A DNA stretch of 64,000 nt from Pseudobacteriovorax antillogorgiicola (lineage in GTDB: Bacteria > Bdellovibrionota_B > Oligoflexia > Oligoflexales > RGVZ01), in assembly GCA_945865565.1 (NCBI GenBank), contig CAMBEK010000003.1, forward strand, positions 124,001-188,000. The letters run 5' to 3'. Position numbers and translations under genes: made by a program. The notes beneath the pieces are model-generated. The model saw nothing but the letters and a program-made list of their open reading frames with translations, did not search any database and had not been told where the DNA came from. The first letter of the stretch is position 1. The number at the start of each line of letters is the position of its first letter. Shown one piece after another: positions 52,489-60,456 of the stretch.

Positions 52489-53901
52489 ATGACCAACAAG
52501 CATTTTGAAAAGGCCGGGTACGGCATTGCTGAAACCGGACTCACTGCCAGTGAAGTCCTGATCCGACTTTACCTCTTGATCTTCTATACGGATATCGTCG
52601 GTCTTGAACCCAAACTAGCAGGTTATGCGGCCGCGATTGCCATTGTCTGGGACGCGATCACCGATCCTCTGATGGGAAACGTGAGCGACCGCACGCGCAG
52701 CCGTTTTGGGCGCCGCCGCCCCTACATTGCCATTGGTGCCGTTTTGCTGGCCGGATCCATCATTTATTTGTTTTCACCGCCGGACCTTGCCACTCAGTCC
52801 GGTAAATTCTGGTTTCTGTTACTTTCTTACATGCTCGTGAATACGGCAACGACAGTGATTGCCATCCCACATGCGGCCCTTGGTAGTGAACTCACTCCTG
52901 ATCGCAGTGAAGTGACCGAAATTTACGCCTGGCGCCTCATCTCCGGAAACATGGGCGCTATCCTGGGCACGATTGTTCCCGGCATTATTTTAACCCGCAT
53001 GGCTGCGGAGCCAGGCATTCAAGACACCGTCGCCAAGGCCGGAGCTCACGCCACTGCGGCGGCCGTGGTCGCAGCCGTTATCTTGGTCACAGCCTGCATA
53101 ACCTTCTTTGCCACACGGCGCGCAGACAAACCCACTGCCGGTATCGCCAGCCAAAAAAAGGCAATGGCCGAAACAGCCCCTGCGTCCCATGCGCCTTTGG
53201 GGCACTTCCAAGGTTTGCGTTCGATGGTGCAGAACAAGCCGTTCGTGATTTTGTTTGTCGCCTATCTGATCGCGACGATTGGCGTGAATATCAATTCAAG
53301 CTTTGCTTTTTTTTACTACAAATACCGCCTTGAACTGACGGAAGCCGACACCCAGAAAGTGATCGCCTTCTTCATGGTGGTTTTCACTCTGGCCCTGATT
53401 GGCTGGATCGCCCTGGCCAATCGCTTTGGAAAAAAAATCCCACTCTTTGCCGGCACCATGCTGCTGGGAATCATGACCGCAATTGGCTACCCGCTATTTC
53501 CGGCAGGCAGCCTGGCAGGGCCGGCCGTTGCGGCGATTTTCGGCGGATTGTTCGTCGGATCGATCTTGCTCCTTGATGCCTGGCTCGTTGATGTCATTGA
53601 TTACGACGAGGTGAAAACAGGACATAGCCGGCCCGGACTTTACTTTGGCATCTGGAAAATGGGTTCAAAGGCGGCCCGGGCAATCGCCGTCGCCCTGTCG
53701 GGGATCATCCTGTCGGCGATCGACTTCCAACCCAACGCCACGCAAACTCCCGAAGTTTCCTTGCGCCTGGCGCTGGTCTTCGGACCTGGAGTTGCCGTTT
53801 TCTTCATCCTTGGCGCACTTCTCACACTCGCCATCAAACTAGACGAGCCCCGCATTGCGAAAGTCCGGCGGATTTTAGCCCAAAGAAATCGCCTACGGTA
53901 A
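52489..53901 (+). CDS. GPH-family (MFS) cation symporter
   Basis: The 470-residue protein has about 12 membrane helices. GYGIAETGLTASEVLIRLYL and WDAITDPLMGNVSDRTRSR, with FGRRRPYI after it, match the glycoside-pentoside-hexuronide:cation symporter family (MFS_2). The substrate is not visible. It starts 17 bases after the small gene, so it belongs to the same operon. Its end overlaps the convergent ATPase gene by nine bases. Confidence 0.9.
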   Translation: MTNKHFEKAGYGIAETGLTASEVLIRLYLLIFYTDIVGLEPKLAGYAAAIAIVWDAITDPLMGNVSDRTRSRFGRRRPYIAIGAVLLAGSIIYLFSPPDLATQSGKFWFLLLSYMLVNTATTVIAIPHAALGSELTPDRSEVTEIYAWRLISGNMGAILGTIVPGIILTRMAAEPGIQDTVAKAGAHATAAAVVAAVILVTACITFFATRRADKPTAGIASQKKAMAETAPASHAPLGHFQGLRSMVQNKPFVILFVAYLIATIGVNINSSFAFFYYKYRLELTEADTQKVIAFFMVVFTLALIGWIALANRFGKKIPLFAGTMLLGIMTAIGYPLFPAGSLAGPAVAAIFGGLFVGSILLLDAWLVDVIDYDEVKTGHSRPGLYFGIWKMGSKAARAIAVALSGIILSAIDFQPNATQTPEVSLRLALVFGPGVAVFFILGALLTLAIKLDEPRIAKVRRILAQRNRLR

Positions 53902-55041
53902 ATTCAGCTCGTTGCAAAACTGTGTAAATGGCATGACAGAGATATTGCCACGACCGTAGTTTGCCTCACCCCTGTGGACCTGATAAAACTTTGGAATTTT
54001 GGTCCTTTCGGAAAAGTAGGAAAGATGCGGGCTCATTTGTTTTTCGCCCGACTTGCATTCGACAGCGAATAACGGCTTAGAGTCTTTCAGGACCACAAAA
54101 TCCACTTCACGTTTATCCGTGTCCCGTAAAAATCGTAACTCCATGGCGTATCCTTCCGTATCCTCAATAAAATGGCAGTACTTCAGAAGCTGCGACGCGA
54201 CGAGATTTTCAAAACGAGCTCCAGGATCGCTCACTTGAGACCAATCCCATAAAAACAACTTCTTTTCTTTTTTTACCGCGCGAATCTTGGGCGAACCAAA
54301 TGGCAGTATCCGAAAGCAGTAATATAAATTCTCAAGGATCGTAATCCAACGCTCAACAGATTTATGATCAACCTGCAGGTCCTCCCGCAAACTATTGACT
54401 GACAGCACTGATCCGACGCGTCCAGGCAATAAATCCACCAATTGCTCAATCAAAGAAATTTCGCGAACGTATTCCAAGTCGCGTAAATCTTCTTTCACCA
54501 CGCGCGCGATACGATCGCGCTGCCAAATTCGATGCATTCGCTCATCTTGGGCAAAAAGTGGTTCCGGAAATCCTCCGAATTTCAAAAGTTGATCGACGTG
54601 CGCCGCCGTGGGACTTGAATTCAGCTCTCGGAGTGAGAACGGATGAAGGCGAAAGTACCGGTAACGATTTGCCAGAGATTCTCCACCTTTCCGGTAATAG
54701 TCTAGTCGCGCGGATCCGGTAACCACGATACGACGGAACGACTTCTCGGTGTCGTAGAGGCCTTTGACCAGCCCGCGCCATCGCGCGAACTTATGGATTT
54801 CGTCTAATATGATTATTGGTTGCTTTTGAGGAAGGATTCCCCGCCGTAGATTTGCGGCCATTTCGGGGCGATCCCAGTTCAAATATCCTGGATGAGTCTC
54901 GTTCGCCTCAGGCCCTAAAAGCTGAAGGGCTAGCGTTGTTTTACCCACCTGTCTGGGACCACCAATGAATACCATTTTCTTCTGTAGAGCCTCGCAAATG
55001 GCTCCCATCAGGTACCGTTCTGATGTTTTTGGCCTATCCAT
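53893..55041 (-). CDS. AAA ATPase with DUF4143 / PD-(D/E)XK-like C-terminus
   Basis: The 382-residue protein has Walker A VFIGGPRQVGKTTLALQL, Walker B PIIILDEIHKFARWRGL, sensor RIVVTGSARLDYYRKGGES and a winged DUF4143 region (LIEQLVDLLPGRVGSVLSVN). The C-terminal core EVDFVVLKDSKPLFAVECKS has the D-x-ExK spacing of PD-(D/E)XK nucleases. It is the same family as the ATPase at 6129-7337, but complete with an ATG start. The gene is A/T-rich. A palindromic array lies 25 bases upstream of its start. Confidence 0.88.
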   Translation of the reverse strand: MDRPKTSERYLMGAICEALQKKMVFIGGPRQVGKTTLALQLLGPEANETHPGYLNWDRPEMAANLRRGILPQKQPIIILDEIHKFARWRGLVKGLYDTEKSFRRIVVTGSARLDYYRKGGESLANRYRYFRLHPFSLRELNSSPTAAHVDQLLKFGGFPEPLFAQDERMHRIWQRDRIARVVKEDLRDLEYVREISLIEQLVDLLPGRVGSVLSVNSLREDLQVDHKSVERWITILENLYYCFRILPFGSPKIRAVKKEKKLFLWDWSQVSDPGARFENLVASQLLKYCHFIEDTEGYAMELRFLRDTDKREVDFVVLKDSKPLFAVECKSGEKQMSPHLSYFSERTKIPKFYQVHRGEANYGRGNISVMPFTQFCNELNLP

Positions 55042-55065
55042 TCATTGCCCCCTCTTTTTTATTAT

Positions 55066-55131
55066 ATGAGTATTTTTGCCTTAAAGCAAAATAACTCATG
55101 AGTGTTTTGGCATGAAGGCATAAATACTCAT
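55066..55131. promoter_or_regulatory. Four-copy palindromic array between the ATPase and kaiC
   Basis: A 14-15 base unit occurs four times in alternating orientation: ATGAGTATTTTTGCC (55066), GCAAAATAACTCAT (55086, reverse), ATGAGTGTTTTGGCA (55098) and GGCATAAATACTCAT (55117, reverse). Copies two and three share two bases. The array fills the divergent intergenic region and reads as a multi-site operator for a dimeric regulator. Confidence 0.8.
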
Positions 55132-55215
55132 AATTGTTCAGAAAGGAACCAACGGCAGGCATCCGAATTGCACCATCTCCCATCGGCTGCGCAAACTTTT
55201 CCCGATGGCGGACCC

Positions 55216-56985
55216 ATGAGCAAGACTACGACCACAAAACAAACCCCACAAAACCCGGCCCAGCGAATCCAAAAGCCCGATAAATCAGGTATTGAAAAAG
55301 CCGCGACTGGTATTGCCGGTTTTGACGATATAACCTTCGGAGGGCTGCCCCGAAATCGTCCAACCCTCATTTGCGGCGGACCGGGATCTGGAAAAACCTT
55401 GTTCGGATTGGAATTCCTCGCGCGGGGCATTACAGAGCATGGCGAGCCGGGCGTGTTCGTGTCGTTTGAGGAAACGGAAGAAGAACTCGCAAAAAACGTC
55501 AAGTCTTTGGGTCTGGACCTGCCAGATCTGATCGCCAAAAAAAAACTTGTCATTGATACTTTGCGGGTCGACCGTGAAGATTACCTGGAAACGGGTGACT
55601 ACGATCTCGGCGGCCTGTTTATCCGCGTTGGCTGCGCCATTGATTCCATCGGCGCCAAACGGATCGTTTTGGACTCGATGGAAGCGCTGTTTTCTGGCCT
55701 GACCGATCACATGCGGCTGCGCAGCGAAATCCACCGCCTGTTCCTTTGGCTGAAAGACAAAGGCGTCACAGCCATTGTCACCGGCGAAAGCATTGAACCA
55801 TCCGGCAAAACCCGCGAGGGTCTGGAAGAATTTATTTCCGACTGCGTGGTTTATCTGGACCATCGCGTCAACGACACCATCAGCACCCGCCGCCTCAGAA
55901 TCACCAAGTACCGGGGTTCGTTTCACGGTACAAACGAATACCCTTTCATGATCGATGAAAGCGGAATCTGCGTCCTCCCTGTGACGTCGCTGAACCTGAC
56001 TTACAAGGCATCCACGGAACGGGTGAGCACAGGCATAGCCAGCCTTGACGGGATGCTTGGTGGCAAAGGCTATTACCGTGGATCCTCCGTTCTGGTAACC
56101 GGCACGGCAGGATCGGGTAAGACCAGCGTTGGCGCCCATTTCATCCATGCGGCATCCCGACGCGGGGAGAGGTGCCTGATGTGGTCCTTCGAAGAATCAG
56201 AATCCCAAATCGTGCGTAACATGCGTTCCATTGGGATCGACCTTGAGCCGTCAATCAAAGCTGGGTCGCTAAAGATCCTTACCAGTCGTCCTCAGATTTT
56301 CGGCCTCGAAATGCATCTAGGCATCATCCATAAGGAGATCAACGCCTTTGCTCCAAAGTGCATTTGCATTGACCCCGTAAGTAATTTCATCGGCGCTGGA
56401 ACGGTGAGCGAAACGAAGGTCATGCTGACACGTCTAGTTGACCTGACGAAATCAAAAGGAATCACGACCATCATGACGTATCTGATTCGCGGCGGGATGC
56501 CCGCGGAAACAACAGATGCGGGTGTCAGTTCACTGATGGACACTTGGATTGTGTTGACTGACCCCGAATTTAATGGCGAGCGGAACCGGATCCTTTCAGT
56601 CTTGAAATCCAGAGGCATGCCACACTCGAATCAAATGCGAGAGATGTTGTTGACATCCCACGGCGTGGAACTGATTGACCCCTATCTGGGCCCATCTGGG
56701 GCCGTTACGGGTGCCGCACGAAAATCCCTCGAAGCGAGTGAAAAGGCACTCGCCGTTGAATGGGAAATCAAATTATTGAGAAAGAAAAAAGATCTTGAGA
56801 ACAGCCGGGACCTGACTGAGGCCAGGATCAAGATGCTGAGGTCACGCCTTCAAACCCAAGAGCAGTCCCTCCAACTCGAAATCTCACAGGCCAAGTCGCT
56901 AGAACAGGTGAAAGTGGAAGACAGGACAAGAATGGGAGCAACCCGGTCGTCTGCGCCTGATCATAAACCCCAGGAGCAGCGATGA
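55216..56985 (+). CDS. kaiC: KaiC-type double-domain ATPase
   Basis: I start at ATG 55216 (GGCGGA upstream). The 589-residue protein has two RecA-type domains. CI: Walker A GGPGSGKT (54-61), the catalytic glutamate pair in [12 protein letters not shown]: Walker A GTAGSGKT (296-303), WSFEESESQ, and the segment [11 protein letters not shown] in which S438 and S439 occupy the two autophosphorylation positions (Ser-Thr in cyanobacterial KaiC). The last 90 residues are charged coiled coil ([20 protein letters not shown]), in place of the short KaiA-binding tail. It heads a tightly coupled operon with two kaiB-like genes and a kinase; no kaiA is nearby. Confidence 0.93.
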
Positions 56986-57320
56986 AGCCTGGCAGCGACA
57001 GATCAGAGGTTTGGGAGCTTTTTCTTTATATCGCGGGGGAAACTCCCAGAAGCGTCATCGCATTTCAAAATCTAAAGGATATTTGTAACACTCACCTTGC
57101 TGGTCGCTACACCATTGAAGTCATTGATCTGGTGAAAAACCCAACTCTGGCTGAGATCGATCAGATCGTCGCGATCCCGACATTGGTTCGAAAACTACCG
57201 AAACCCGTGCGCAAGATCATCGGTGACCTGTCCAACACCGAGAAAACCTTAATTGACCTTCAAGTTCGTCCGGCCAAGCTTAAAAACGCGACTCAAAAGG
57301 ACCATCGAGACGCGTCATGA
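56982..57320 (+). CDS. kaiB: KaiB-family protein 1
   Basis: Its ATG overlaps the kaiC stop (ATGA). The 112-residue protein has the thioredoxin-like KaiB fold: [38 protein letters not shown] and [20 protein letters not shown]. The conserved IVAIPTL with cis-proline is kept. KaiB proteins bind the CI ring of KaiC. The basic tail ([14 protein letters not shown]) extends beyond the usual end. It also overlaps the next gene by four bases. Confidence 0.92.
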
Positions 57321-57688
57321 AAAAAAGCACCCCTACACCGATAACGGCCACCGATAAATTCGAGGCCCTCGATAAAGGCCCAGATAATCACGTTTACGTC
57401 CTTCGACTGTACGTCTATGGCATGTCTCAGAAATCGAGCGATGCCATCGCTGCGATTGAAAAAATCTGCCGCGAACACCTGCCCGGACGCTTTACACTCG
57501 AAGTTATTGACATCACCAACGACCCAAATATCGCGATGGATGACGATATCGTTGCCATTCCCATGCTGGAGAAAATCCTTCCCTTGCCAAGGCAACGCAT
57601 GATCGGTGACCTGTCGGACCAAGAAAAAGTCCTGAGCCTGCTAGATTTGAAAAAGCCGTCACCATTATCCCCTAAGGGAAAATCATGA
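57317..57688 (+). CDS. kaiB: KaiB-family protein 2
   Basis: The 123-residue protein has the same fold as the previous one: [40 protein letters not shown] and [20 protein letters not shown]. It has a 25-residue N-terminal extension ([20 protein letters not shown]) that the first lacks. The two share perhaps a third of their residues, so they are old paralogs and not a recent duplication. It overlaps both neighbours by four bases, so all four genes are translationally coupled. Confidence 0.92.
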
Positions 57689-60456
57689 CCTCTGAAGAAT
57701 CGAGATTGAGGGGCGAAATAGATCAACTCAAGGCAAAGATTTGCGAGATGACTGAGATCATCGACGCCATCACCACAGGATCTGCCGACGCGTTGGTCGT
57801 CAAACACCCCACCGGCACGCACATCTATACCATTGAAGCAGCCGCTGATGCGTATCGGATCATGGTCGAAGAAATGAGTGAAGGCGCTTTGTCCCTGAGC
57901 AAAGACGGCATCATTTTATACTGCAACGGCCAATTCTCTGAGATTCTTCAAATTCCACCGGCACACCTGATTTCGAAAAAGATGAATGCTCTGCTTGATC
58001 CCGCGACCGCACCAATTTTCACTGCCCTTTTAGAGGACCACCGAGACAAAGGCGGCCAGGGGGAAGTCGTTCTTCTTGCTTCAGATGGCCGTAAAATTCC
58101 GGCACTTCTGTCTTTGCGGCATGCCTCTCGCGATTCAAGAGAAGTGATCTCTGTCATCATCACCGACCTGACGGCTCAAAAGCGAAACCGGGAGATTGAA
58201 GCCGCGGCCTCCATGACCAATGTCATTCTGGATCAAGCCGGCGATGCCGTACTGGTGTGTGATCCAGAAGGCGTGATCATTCGGGCCAATCAGGCCGCCC
58301 AAAGGCTGGCCAAAAAAAACCCGCTTTTCAAAAACGTCTCAGAGGTGTTCGCTCTGGGCGTGAAGCATACGGATTTCGTCCGTGGCCTGCAGATCGAGAT
58401 TCCAACAGGAGAAGGCGATTTGCCGGGCCACATGCTGGTGTCTGTTAGCCCTTTGACAGACCCTGATGATCATTCGAAGAACGTTGGGTCCGTCATCACA
58501 TTGACCGACATCAGTAAGGTAAAAATCCACGAAATCGAGACGCGGAAAAGCCGGGATTTCTTGCAGACGACCCTTGGAAGCATTGGTGATGGGGTGATTG
58601 CTACCAATGCCGCGGGGATCATAACTATAATCAATCCCGTCGCTGAAAAAATATGTGGTTATAGACTCGACGACGCGCTGGGCATGCCTTTTACCGATGT
58701 CTTTAAAATCAGATCCTATTCTGGCGAGACAGCCGTTGAGGACATTGTTACCCAGGTTCTCCACAGTGCGTCTGTTATGACCTTGCCCGACAACTCTGAA
58801 CTTCTCCTACGGGATGGCACCCTCGTACCAATCGAGGATCACGCTGCACCAATTTTAGACGACTCTGGTAAAATCACCGGTGTCGTACTGACGTTCAGGG
58901 ATGTAACAGAAAAGCGAAAATCATTCTTATGCCTCGCAAAAAGTGAGGAACTTCTCAATCACGCCCAGCATATCGCCCAGATTGGAAGTTGGCACTGGGA
59001 GGTCAATACCCAGACGTTTACTTCATCCAAAGAATTCCAACGCCTATTTGGAATTAACCCTGAGGTGCAAGAGCCACAGGGAATCTGGGCTCAACTGGAG
59101 GTTTTAAGAAAGAAGTCACTGGAGAGCGGAGAGGGCTACGCAACTGAATTAGAAGGCACGCCCGGCGATAGCCGTGGTTCCGAAACCTCAATTTGGGTGA
59201 AGTGCCACGGCGAGGTTGAGCGAGATATTTCTGGCCGAATCATTGGCATGAGCGGAACGGTGCATGACATTACACCACTGAAAAAAATCGAGATTGAATT
59301 AAGTCGAGCCAAAAAAGAAGCCGAGGATGCCAATAGATTGAAAAGCGAATTTCTGGCTCTGATGAGCCATGAGATCAGGACTCCCGTAACTGCAATTTTA
59401 GGGTTCTCAGAACTCGTGACGAATCCAGAAGAGAATTTAGATGACAGGAAATCTTACAGCGAACGGATTCGTCGAAATGGCGAACACCTTTTGCGCCTTA
59501 TCGACGATATCCTTGACCTTTCTAAAATCGAGGTTGGCAGGATGGAGTTCGACAGTGTTCCAGTCAACATCCATGAAACTGTGGGTGATGTTTTTACAAC
59601 AATGCTTTCATTGGCCAGCGCAAAGCGCCTTCAGCTGAGCCTGGCGATGGGCCAGTTTTTGCCGGTATCTATAATGACTGACCGGACTCGACTCCGTCAG
59701 ATTCTGACTAACATAATCGGAAACGCGATTAAATTTACCCATGCCGGTTCAGTGAGAGTGAGGGTATCTGCCAGCGATGCCGACAAAAAGCTGCACATCA
59801 TTGTGACCGACACTGGAATTGGCCTTACGGACGCGCAGGCACGGGGTATCTTTCAATTGTTTATTCAGGGCGATTCGTCAATCACCCGGAAATACGGCGG
59901 TACAGGCCTTGGCCTGGCTCTCTCCAGGAAACTGGCCCAGGCACTTGGCGGTGACGTCATCTTGGCTGAAAACCGCGGAGTTGCGGGGCCAAATCACGGA
60001 TGTACCTTTGAGATCACCATTGCCATGACCGACGCAACGTACCAGGAGAAACCTGTCCCAGTGAGTGCAGACAATCAGCCATCGGCAAACCTTGACGGGA
60101 TCAAAGTGCTCGTCGTCGAAAGTAACCCTGAACTGCAATACTTGATTAACAGGTATGTAACATCTTCGGGCGGAAGTGTGGATCTCGCCTCCAGTGGCGA
60201 GGACGGCGTGGTCATGGCTTTATCCGGTAATTATGATGCCGTGCTGATGGATATCTGGCTGCCCGTCATGAATGGGCGCGAAGCGACTCGGACCCTTCGA
60301 GCAAAGGGCTACAAAACACCCATCGTTGCGTTGACCAATCACGCCATGCAGGATGAGGTGAAACTCTGTGAGGATGCCGGGTGCACTGCCTACCTGCCAA
60401 AACCAATAAATAGAACGGATCTGGTGAGCATGATCTCGAAAATCGTTCACCATTAA
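57685..60456 (+). CDS. Multi-PAS hybrid histidine kinase of the Kai operon
   Basis: The 923-residue protein lacks membrane helices. Order: a coiled N-terminus with DAITTGSADALVV, a PAS (YRIMVEEMSEGALSLSKDG), a second PAS (about 170-290), a third (about 295-410, GVIATNAAGIITIINPVAE), a fourth degenerate one (about 420-535), then HisKA with His562 in LMSHEIRTPVTAILGF, HATPase (NIIGNAIKFTHAGS, GTGLGLALS) and a receiver domain with Asp856 in LMDIWLPVMNG. The receiver's acidic pair reads VVESNPE where DD is usual, and its invariant lysine is in LPKPIN. It is likely the output or input kinase of the Kai proteins. Confidence 0.93.
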   Translation: MTSEESRLRGEIDQLKAKICEMTEIIDAITTGSADALVVKHPTGTHIYTIEAAADAYRIMVEEMSEGALSLSKDGIILYCNGQFSEILQIPPAHLISKKMNALLDPATAPIFTALLEDHRDKGGQGEVVLLASDGRKIPALLSLRHASRDSREVISVIITDLTAQKRNREIEAAASMTNVILDQAGDAVLVCDPEGVIIRANQAAQRLAKKNPLFKNVSEVFALGVKHTDFVRGLQIEIPTGEGDLPGHMLVSVSPLTDPDDHSKNVGSVITLTDISKVKIHEIETRKSRDFLQTTLGSIGDGVIATNAAGIITIINPVAEKICGYRLDDALGMPFTDVFKIRSYSGETAVEDIVTQVLHSASVMTLPDNSELLLRDGTLVPIEDHAAPILDDSGKITGVVLTFRDVTEKRKSFLCLAKSEELLNHAQHIAQIGSWHWEVNTQTFTSSKEFQRLFGINPEVQEPQGIWAQLEVLRKKSLESGEGYATELEGTPGDSRGSETSIWVKCHGEVERDISGRIIGMSGTVHDITPLKKIEIELSRAKKEAEDANRLKSEFLALMSHEIRTPVTAILGFSELVTNPEENLDDRKSYSERIRRNGEHLLRLIDDILDLSKIEVGRMEFDSVPVNIHETVGDVFTTMLSLASAKRLQLSLAMGQFLPVSIMTDRTRLRQILTNIIGNAIKFTHAGSVRVRVSASDADKKLHIIVTDTGIGLTDAQARGIFQLFIQGDSSITRKYGGTGLGLALSRKLAQALGGDVILAENRGVAGPNHGCTFEITIAMTDATYQEKPVPVSADNQPSANLDGIKVLVVESNPELQYLINRYVTSSGGSVDLASSGEDGVVMALSGNYDAVLMDIWLPVMNGREATRTLRAKGYKTPIVALTNHAMQDEVKLCEDAGCTAYLPKPINRTDLVSMISKIVHH

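Follow-up and report, generated by a model that had tools for sequence, protein, structure and literature searches.

A KaiA-less kaiC-kaiB-kaiB-hybrid kinase operon with two KaiB clades and a kai-linked kinase segment in Pseudobacteriovorax antillogorgiicola

A 64,000-nucleotide stretch of DNA from Pseudobacteriovorax antillogorgiicola (contig CAMBEK010000003.1, positions 124,001 to 188,000; hereafter the window) carries a four-gene operon, kaiC-kaiB1-kaiB2-hybrid histidine kinase, at window positions 55216-60456, as confirmed by open reading frame calls and Pfam searches. All four genes lie on the forward strand. The first, kaiC (55216-56985), encodes a KaiC2-type protein of 589 residues with CI and CII ATPase domains (Pfam; PDB match 8dba), in which the KaiC/ATPase family is matched twice (E 1e-105). 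It is followed by kaiB1 (56982-57320; 112 residues), a member of the first-position KaiB clade whose nearest solved relative is the KaiB of Rhodobacter sphaeroides, and by kaiB2 (57317-57688; 123 residues), a member of the second-position clade modelled in the fold-switched, thioredoxin-like KaiB fold; with 92.5 and 79.1 bits (E 1e-26 and 2e-22), both exceed the curated Pfam cut-off of 27 bits for KaiB. The last gene (57685-60456) encodes a kinase of 923 residues composed of an N-terminal segment, PAS repeats, HisKA, HATPase_c and a receiver domain (REC; Response_reg in Pfam). The three junctions, kaiC/kaiB1, kaiB1/kaiB2 and kaiB2/kinase, are ATGA overlaps, in agreement with the four-base start/stop overlaps reported in a preliminary description of the locus, and each of them recurs in the sister species (locus L004), an Oligoflexales metagenome-assembled genome that is the nearest named relative and whose KaiC is 93% identical. 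The genome itself (2.5 Mb in 44 contigs, ~90% complete) holds one full KaiC and two KaiB proteins, which are the operon copies only. KaiA, the component that a KaiABC circadian oscillator contains, had no match (PF07688) in this ~90% complete genome, while a Synechococcus control was matched. The earlier view, that KaiB and KaiC form a KaiA-less unit encoded together with a kinase, is upheld. The operon is of a known kind, a KaiA-less KaiBC unit with a kinase, in a two-KaiB variant.

The preliminary description had regarded two features as novel, the doubled KaiB and a kinase that fuses sensor and receiver, and had proposed to search related genomes for the same gene order. Our survey, which combined a scan of genome contigs, named plasmid records and six-frame annotation, did not support either view. 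The order kaiC-kaiB-kaiB-PAS kinase recurs in many phyla: it was found in Acidobacteriota (L007), Myxococcota (L005), Desulfobacteraceae of the Desulfobacterota (L010) and Omnitrophota (L023), as well as in Mucilaginibacter (Bacteroidota; L011 and L022), Verrucomicrobiales (Verrucomicrobiota; L012) and, among Pseudomonadota, Telmatospirillum (L014) and Pararhizobium (L082), and it occurs in further phyla, with a kinase that is hybrid or not. The idea of an operon unique to this genome was rejected on these grounds, and the fused kinase is an ordinary hybrid kinase of a type that also follows kaiC-kaiB-kaiB in L005, L012, L023 and L082. The window operon has the composition of these kaiCBB-kinase loci, that is kaiC, a two-clade KaiB pair and a segment-bearing kinase, in this order. 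Parts of the layout have been described before. In most non-cyanobacteria, kaiBC was reported to lie beside a gene for a kinase or a GGDEF/EAL protein (2011, PMC3164672), Rhodopseudomonas palustris possesses a kaiC-kaiB-PAS kinase unit described as a proto-circadian timekeeper (2016, PMC4794148), and 'kaiCBB' has been mentioned for Thiodictyon syntrophicum (PMC5944118). What the survey adds is the matched, apparently ancient KaiB pair and the kai-linked kinase segment; while the genes listed in the preliminary description stand, these two features and the coiled-coil tail of KaiC had been overlooked.

KaiC has the two RecA-like domains of a double-domain clock ATPase, with intact Walker A motifs (residues 54-61 and 296-303) and catalytic Glu pairs (85/86 and 326/327). 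Among solved structures, R. sphaeroides KaiC (8dba) is the closest, aligning over residues 24-577 including the tail (587 bits, E 2e-175), whereas cyanobacterial KaiC structures score ~320 bits. The KaiC2/KaiC-RS subgroup is distinguished by two Ser residues at the phosphosites and a C-terminal coiled-coil extension of ~50 residues (PMC10076222). Judged by its sequence, the window KaiC belongs to this subgroup: the phosphosites are Ser438-Ser439, as in R. sphaeroides KaiC (GLSSLMD / GVSSLMD), and the C-terminus is predicted to form a coiled-coil tail of ~100 residues that aligns to 8dba through residue 577. Experiments on KaiC-RS have shown that its tail takes the place of KaiA, that it autophosphorylates alone and that it works as an hourglass driven by the ATP/ADP ratio (PMC10076222). 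By homology, we infer that the KaiC described here behaves as a KaiA-independent hourglass of the same type; among the options raised previously (oscillator, hourglass timer or stress switch), an hourglass or stress timer is plausible. An alternative that we consider unlikely is a stress or energy switch without any timing role, in which KaiC would signal ATP/ADP to the kinase in the service of stress responses. A stress-response role has been proposed for the kai genes of Legionella. Many non-phototrophs in our survey carry Kai systems, the distribution of the operon within the phylum is scattered (4 of 58 genomes have KaiB) and the response of KaiC-RS to ATP/ADP (PMC10076222) would suit a switch as well. 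KaiC retains the full double-domain, dual-phosphosite machinery, yet the sequence fits timer and switch alike.

Two KaiB clades and their predicted folds

KaiB1 and KaiB2 share 44% identity. In a tree of 62 KaiB domains, one branch parts all first-position from all second-position KaiBs, and each of 200 bootstrap trees (100%) needs just one change of gene position, whereas 0 of 500 shuffles reached so low a value; the branch between the clades has a support of 62/97, with few alignment columns at hand. Given that the position clades separate in the tree, the pair may go back to one duplication that was kept or transferred together, and it looks like an ancient event rather than a recent tandem copy. 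The pairing of the two clades has persisted in about ten phyla. Among 199 Acidobacteriota genomes, 13 have KaiB above the cut-off, nine of these with two adjacent copies, and loci with a single KaiB carry either the first- or the second-position type. The existence of such single-KaiB loci, together with the long stem of the window KaiB2 (0.83), which is common only to L004, might suggest that KaiB2 has no role of its own and is a duplicate, redundant or in decay. We regard this as improbable, as the two clades have been retained together so widely and kaiB1 and kaiB2 keep their ATGA coupling and open reading frames in the sister species. A Phycisphaeraceae kai locus (L026 8593-10618) has three KaiB genes, of which the third falls with Synechococcus KaiB in the tree; in between, the locus encodes a short protein that consists of PAS only and bears the kai-linked segment.

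The two proteins also differ in their predicted structures, which were obtained by AlphaFold2 from clade-specific, shallow alignments (20 and 16 rows). The KaiB1 model, beta-alpha-beta followed by alpha-alpha-beta, best matches ground-state KaiB crystals (1vgl/2qke), and KaiB1 is, at low confidence, placed nearer the ground-state fold. For KaiB2, the best matches are KaiC-bound KaiB (8fwj_M), 5jyt and 4kun, with the SasA N-domain lower in the list, and the prediction is that KaiB2 adopts the fold-switched, KaiC-binding fold. In KaiB-RS, three mutations at I68 (I68R), V83 and N84 flip the protein to the switched fold (PMC10808063). At the equivalent of I68, in a numbering shifted by one relative to the annotated start, KaiB2 carries Arg (LPRQR) and the L004 KaiB2 Lys, KaiB1 carries Val (KPVRK) and R. 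sphaeroides KaiB Ile (VPIRK); first-position KaiBs are hydrophobic at this site. Three observations weigh against this assignment of fold states. The half of the KaiB1 model that switches fold has a predicted local distance difference test score (pLDDT) of 48-69, the state that AlphaFold chooses for KaiB varies with the alignment (PMC10808063), and most other second-position KaiBs have an uncharged Leu or Ile at position 68. The charge of KaiB2 at this position may be a lineage trait.

A kai-linked segment at the head of the kinase

The kinase carries its phospho-accepting residues in HisKA (His562) and in REC, which keeps Asp856, Thr884 and Lys906; the acidic pair of the receiver (60112-60123) is Glu-Ser rather than two acidic residues, as also in L004. 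Pfam searches found no KaiB-like thioredoxin domain in the kinase, the type of domain with which SasA binds KaiC CI. Ahead of the first PAS domain lies a segment of ~60 residues instead (residues 4-65; 57694-57879, forward strand) that matched no Pfam, NCBIfam or PDB family beyond weak chance hits, and in which a short coiled-coil-like helix is followed by the motifs AIR-x-GEVDALVV and VYTL-x-GAD-xx-YR. The same segment heads kaiB-adjacent proteins of differing type, namely HisKA, HWE (R. sphaeroides) and HisKA_3 kinases and an HD domain protein.

The linkage of this segment to kaiB is nearly exclusive. It was present in 15 of 16 whole genomes with kai loci, in 16 copies that all lie at a kai locus (one genome has two). 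In Acidobacteriota (199 genomes), 13 copies in 12 genomes were recovered at E < 1e-6, 12 of which abut kaiB, and by genome the segment occurs in 12 of the 13 with KaiB versus none of the 186 others (Fisher 2e-18). Pseudomonadota and Bacteroidota (694 genomes) yielded 30 copies at E <= 1e-5, every one of which comes directly after kaiB, two of them (L168 and L169) with a gap of ~250 bp between kaiB and the segment-bearing gene. Pooled over the 893 genomes of these three phyla, 42 of 43 copies adjoin kaiB. The search scored limited candidates per genome, so that weak copies may be missed, and recall was measured in one phylum. The segment was not found at the surveyed cyanobacterial loci or at divergent Rhodospira-type KaiB loci.

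Since the segment is linked near-exclusively to kaiB across different output domains, we propose that the kinase reads the state of the Kai proteins through it. Several points speak against this. One clear copy, the sole exception, in Acidobacteriota (L105 1393-3177), lies on an open frame of 1776 residues with PAS domains and without an adjacent kai gene, in a genome that also carries a kai-linked copy; linkage is no proof of physical contact, and the segment could instead serve dimerisation. Four segment-bearing loci have a KaiC apparently without the long tail, which weakened the idea of the KaiC tail as a strict partner of the segment. The kinase might also act as an input, its PAS domains sensing redox or light and setting KaiC. 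Such a role has been suggested for the R. sphaeroides kinase, according to quotations in later papers (PMC5520375, PMC10931921), and several PAS domains precede HisKA here (Pfam). We nevertheless consider it unlikely, as the segment precedes HisKA, HWE and HisKA_3 kinases and one HD protein, a range that suits an output fan over a common input enzyme. The HD protein, at L008 2677-4833, has the architecture PAS-GAF-HD (HD_5), is not a kinase and points to a possible non-kinase output. Two segment proteins were observed at a Myxococcales kai locus (L016 3834-6335 and 9174-9995), one of them upstream on the opposite strand, the other downstream.

Upstream region and genomic setting

The divergent intergenic region before kaiC contains a 68-bp inverted repeat (55065-55132, no strand) that we consider an operator candidate. 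It consists of two adjacent 32-bp dyads (TGAGT-n22-ACTCA), occurs at a single place in the genome and overlaps a promoter-like site (55107-55134) oriented into kaiC; the gene on its other side (53893-55041) encodes an AAA_14/DUF4143 ATPase. It lies in a conserved stretch: the 177 bp preceding ATG 55216 are identical to L004 at 176 positions, compared to 88% identity for the coding DNA of the operon. Although a GTG at 55102 is a possible alternative start of kaiC, ATG 55216 is preferred because the 177 bp before it behave as a conserved non-coding leader. A structured leader RNA was rejected, its fold being no better than that of shuffled sequences (z 0.17), and the inverted repeat accounts for the Rfam matches upstream of kaiC, which were microRNA families scoring far below the respective cut-offs.

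Among the 58 genomes of the phylum, paired KaiB is confined to this genus, of which three of four members have the operon, whole or in part. Its apparent absence from one of them (G003), in which no KaiB was found, was rejected, as the contig ends inside the kinase gene (97% identity). The genome without the operon (G002) has at the syntenic site (L175 9167-10787) a different gene and apparent DUF4143-like ATPase fragments, a likeness judged by eye. With DUF4143-type ATPases at both kai-bearing and kai-less versions, the site appears as if it were a variable locus, and the distribution in the genus fits horizontal gain or local loss.

Proposed mechanism and relation to known Kai systems

The closest parallel to the window operon is KaiBC-RS of Rhodobacter (Cereibacter) sphaeroides, which likewise has a KaiC2 with SS sites and a coiled-coil tail, no KaiA and a PAS kinase after KaiB that shares the N-terminal segment. 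R. sphaeroides, however, possesses one KaiB and an HWE kinase without a receiver, whereas the window operon encodes two KaiBs and a hybrid kinase with HisKA and REC. The annotated kaiC-kaiB-kaiB-response regulator/kinase unit on p3 of Pararhizobium qamdonense matches in order, in both KaiB clades and in its segment-bearing hybrid kinase, but is plasmid-borne and has a shorter kinase. By their published descriptions, Thiodictyon syntrophicum resembles our operon in that kaiCBB adjoins a signalling gene, which is reported as a diguanylate cyclase rather than a kinase (PMC5944118), and R. palustris in its KaiA-less unit with a PAS kinase, albeit with a single kaiB (PMC4794148). The cyanobacterial KaiABC system with SasA also combines homologues of KaiC and KaiB with a kinase; in contrast, the present system lacks a KaiA match, its kinase has no KaiB-like domain (Pfam) and all of its genes form one operon.

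Taken as a whole, we favour, with reasonable though not strong confidence, a KaiBC system of the R. sphaeroides type that works independently of KaiA, as a timer or energy-state sensor, and is wired to a dedicated kinase. KaiC would probably form hexamers paired via the coiled-coil tail. By analogy to KaiC-RS, high ATP would lead to autophosphorylation at Ser438/Ser439, and a drop in ATP/ADP would bring KaiC back to an unphosphorylated form that carries KaiB on CI. KaiB1 might act as the slow, fold-switching partner in the manner of R. sphaeroides KaiB, while KaiB2, predicted to be binding-competent, could be a second ligand of CI that binds fast or constitutively and competes with or modulates KaiB1. 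The kinase would read the Kai state via its N-terminal segment, whichever output domain follows, and relay the signal via His562 and then Asp856 to an Hpt protein or regulator; the operon itself contains no Hpt or response regulator gene.

We tentatively extend this proposal, at slightly less than even chances, to Kai systems outside the cyanobacteria. The segment might dock varied signalling enzymes (HisKA, HWE, HisKA_3 and HD) onto Kai, doing the job of SasA without a KaiB-like domain, and many such systems might share an ancient two-KaiB design with one metamorphic and one binding-competent KaiB. The paired clades offer a natural experiment on the retention of two KaiBs beside a single KaiC, and they come with an explicit prediction of fold states. 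The segment offers a direct handle on how KaiA-less KaiBC systems signal to the cell and predicts a partner protein. It can be deleted or transplanted, and it makes the question of whether the kinase is an input or an output testable.

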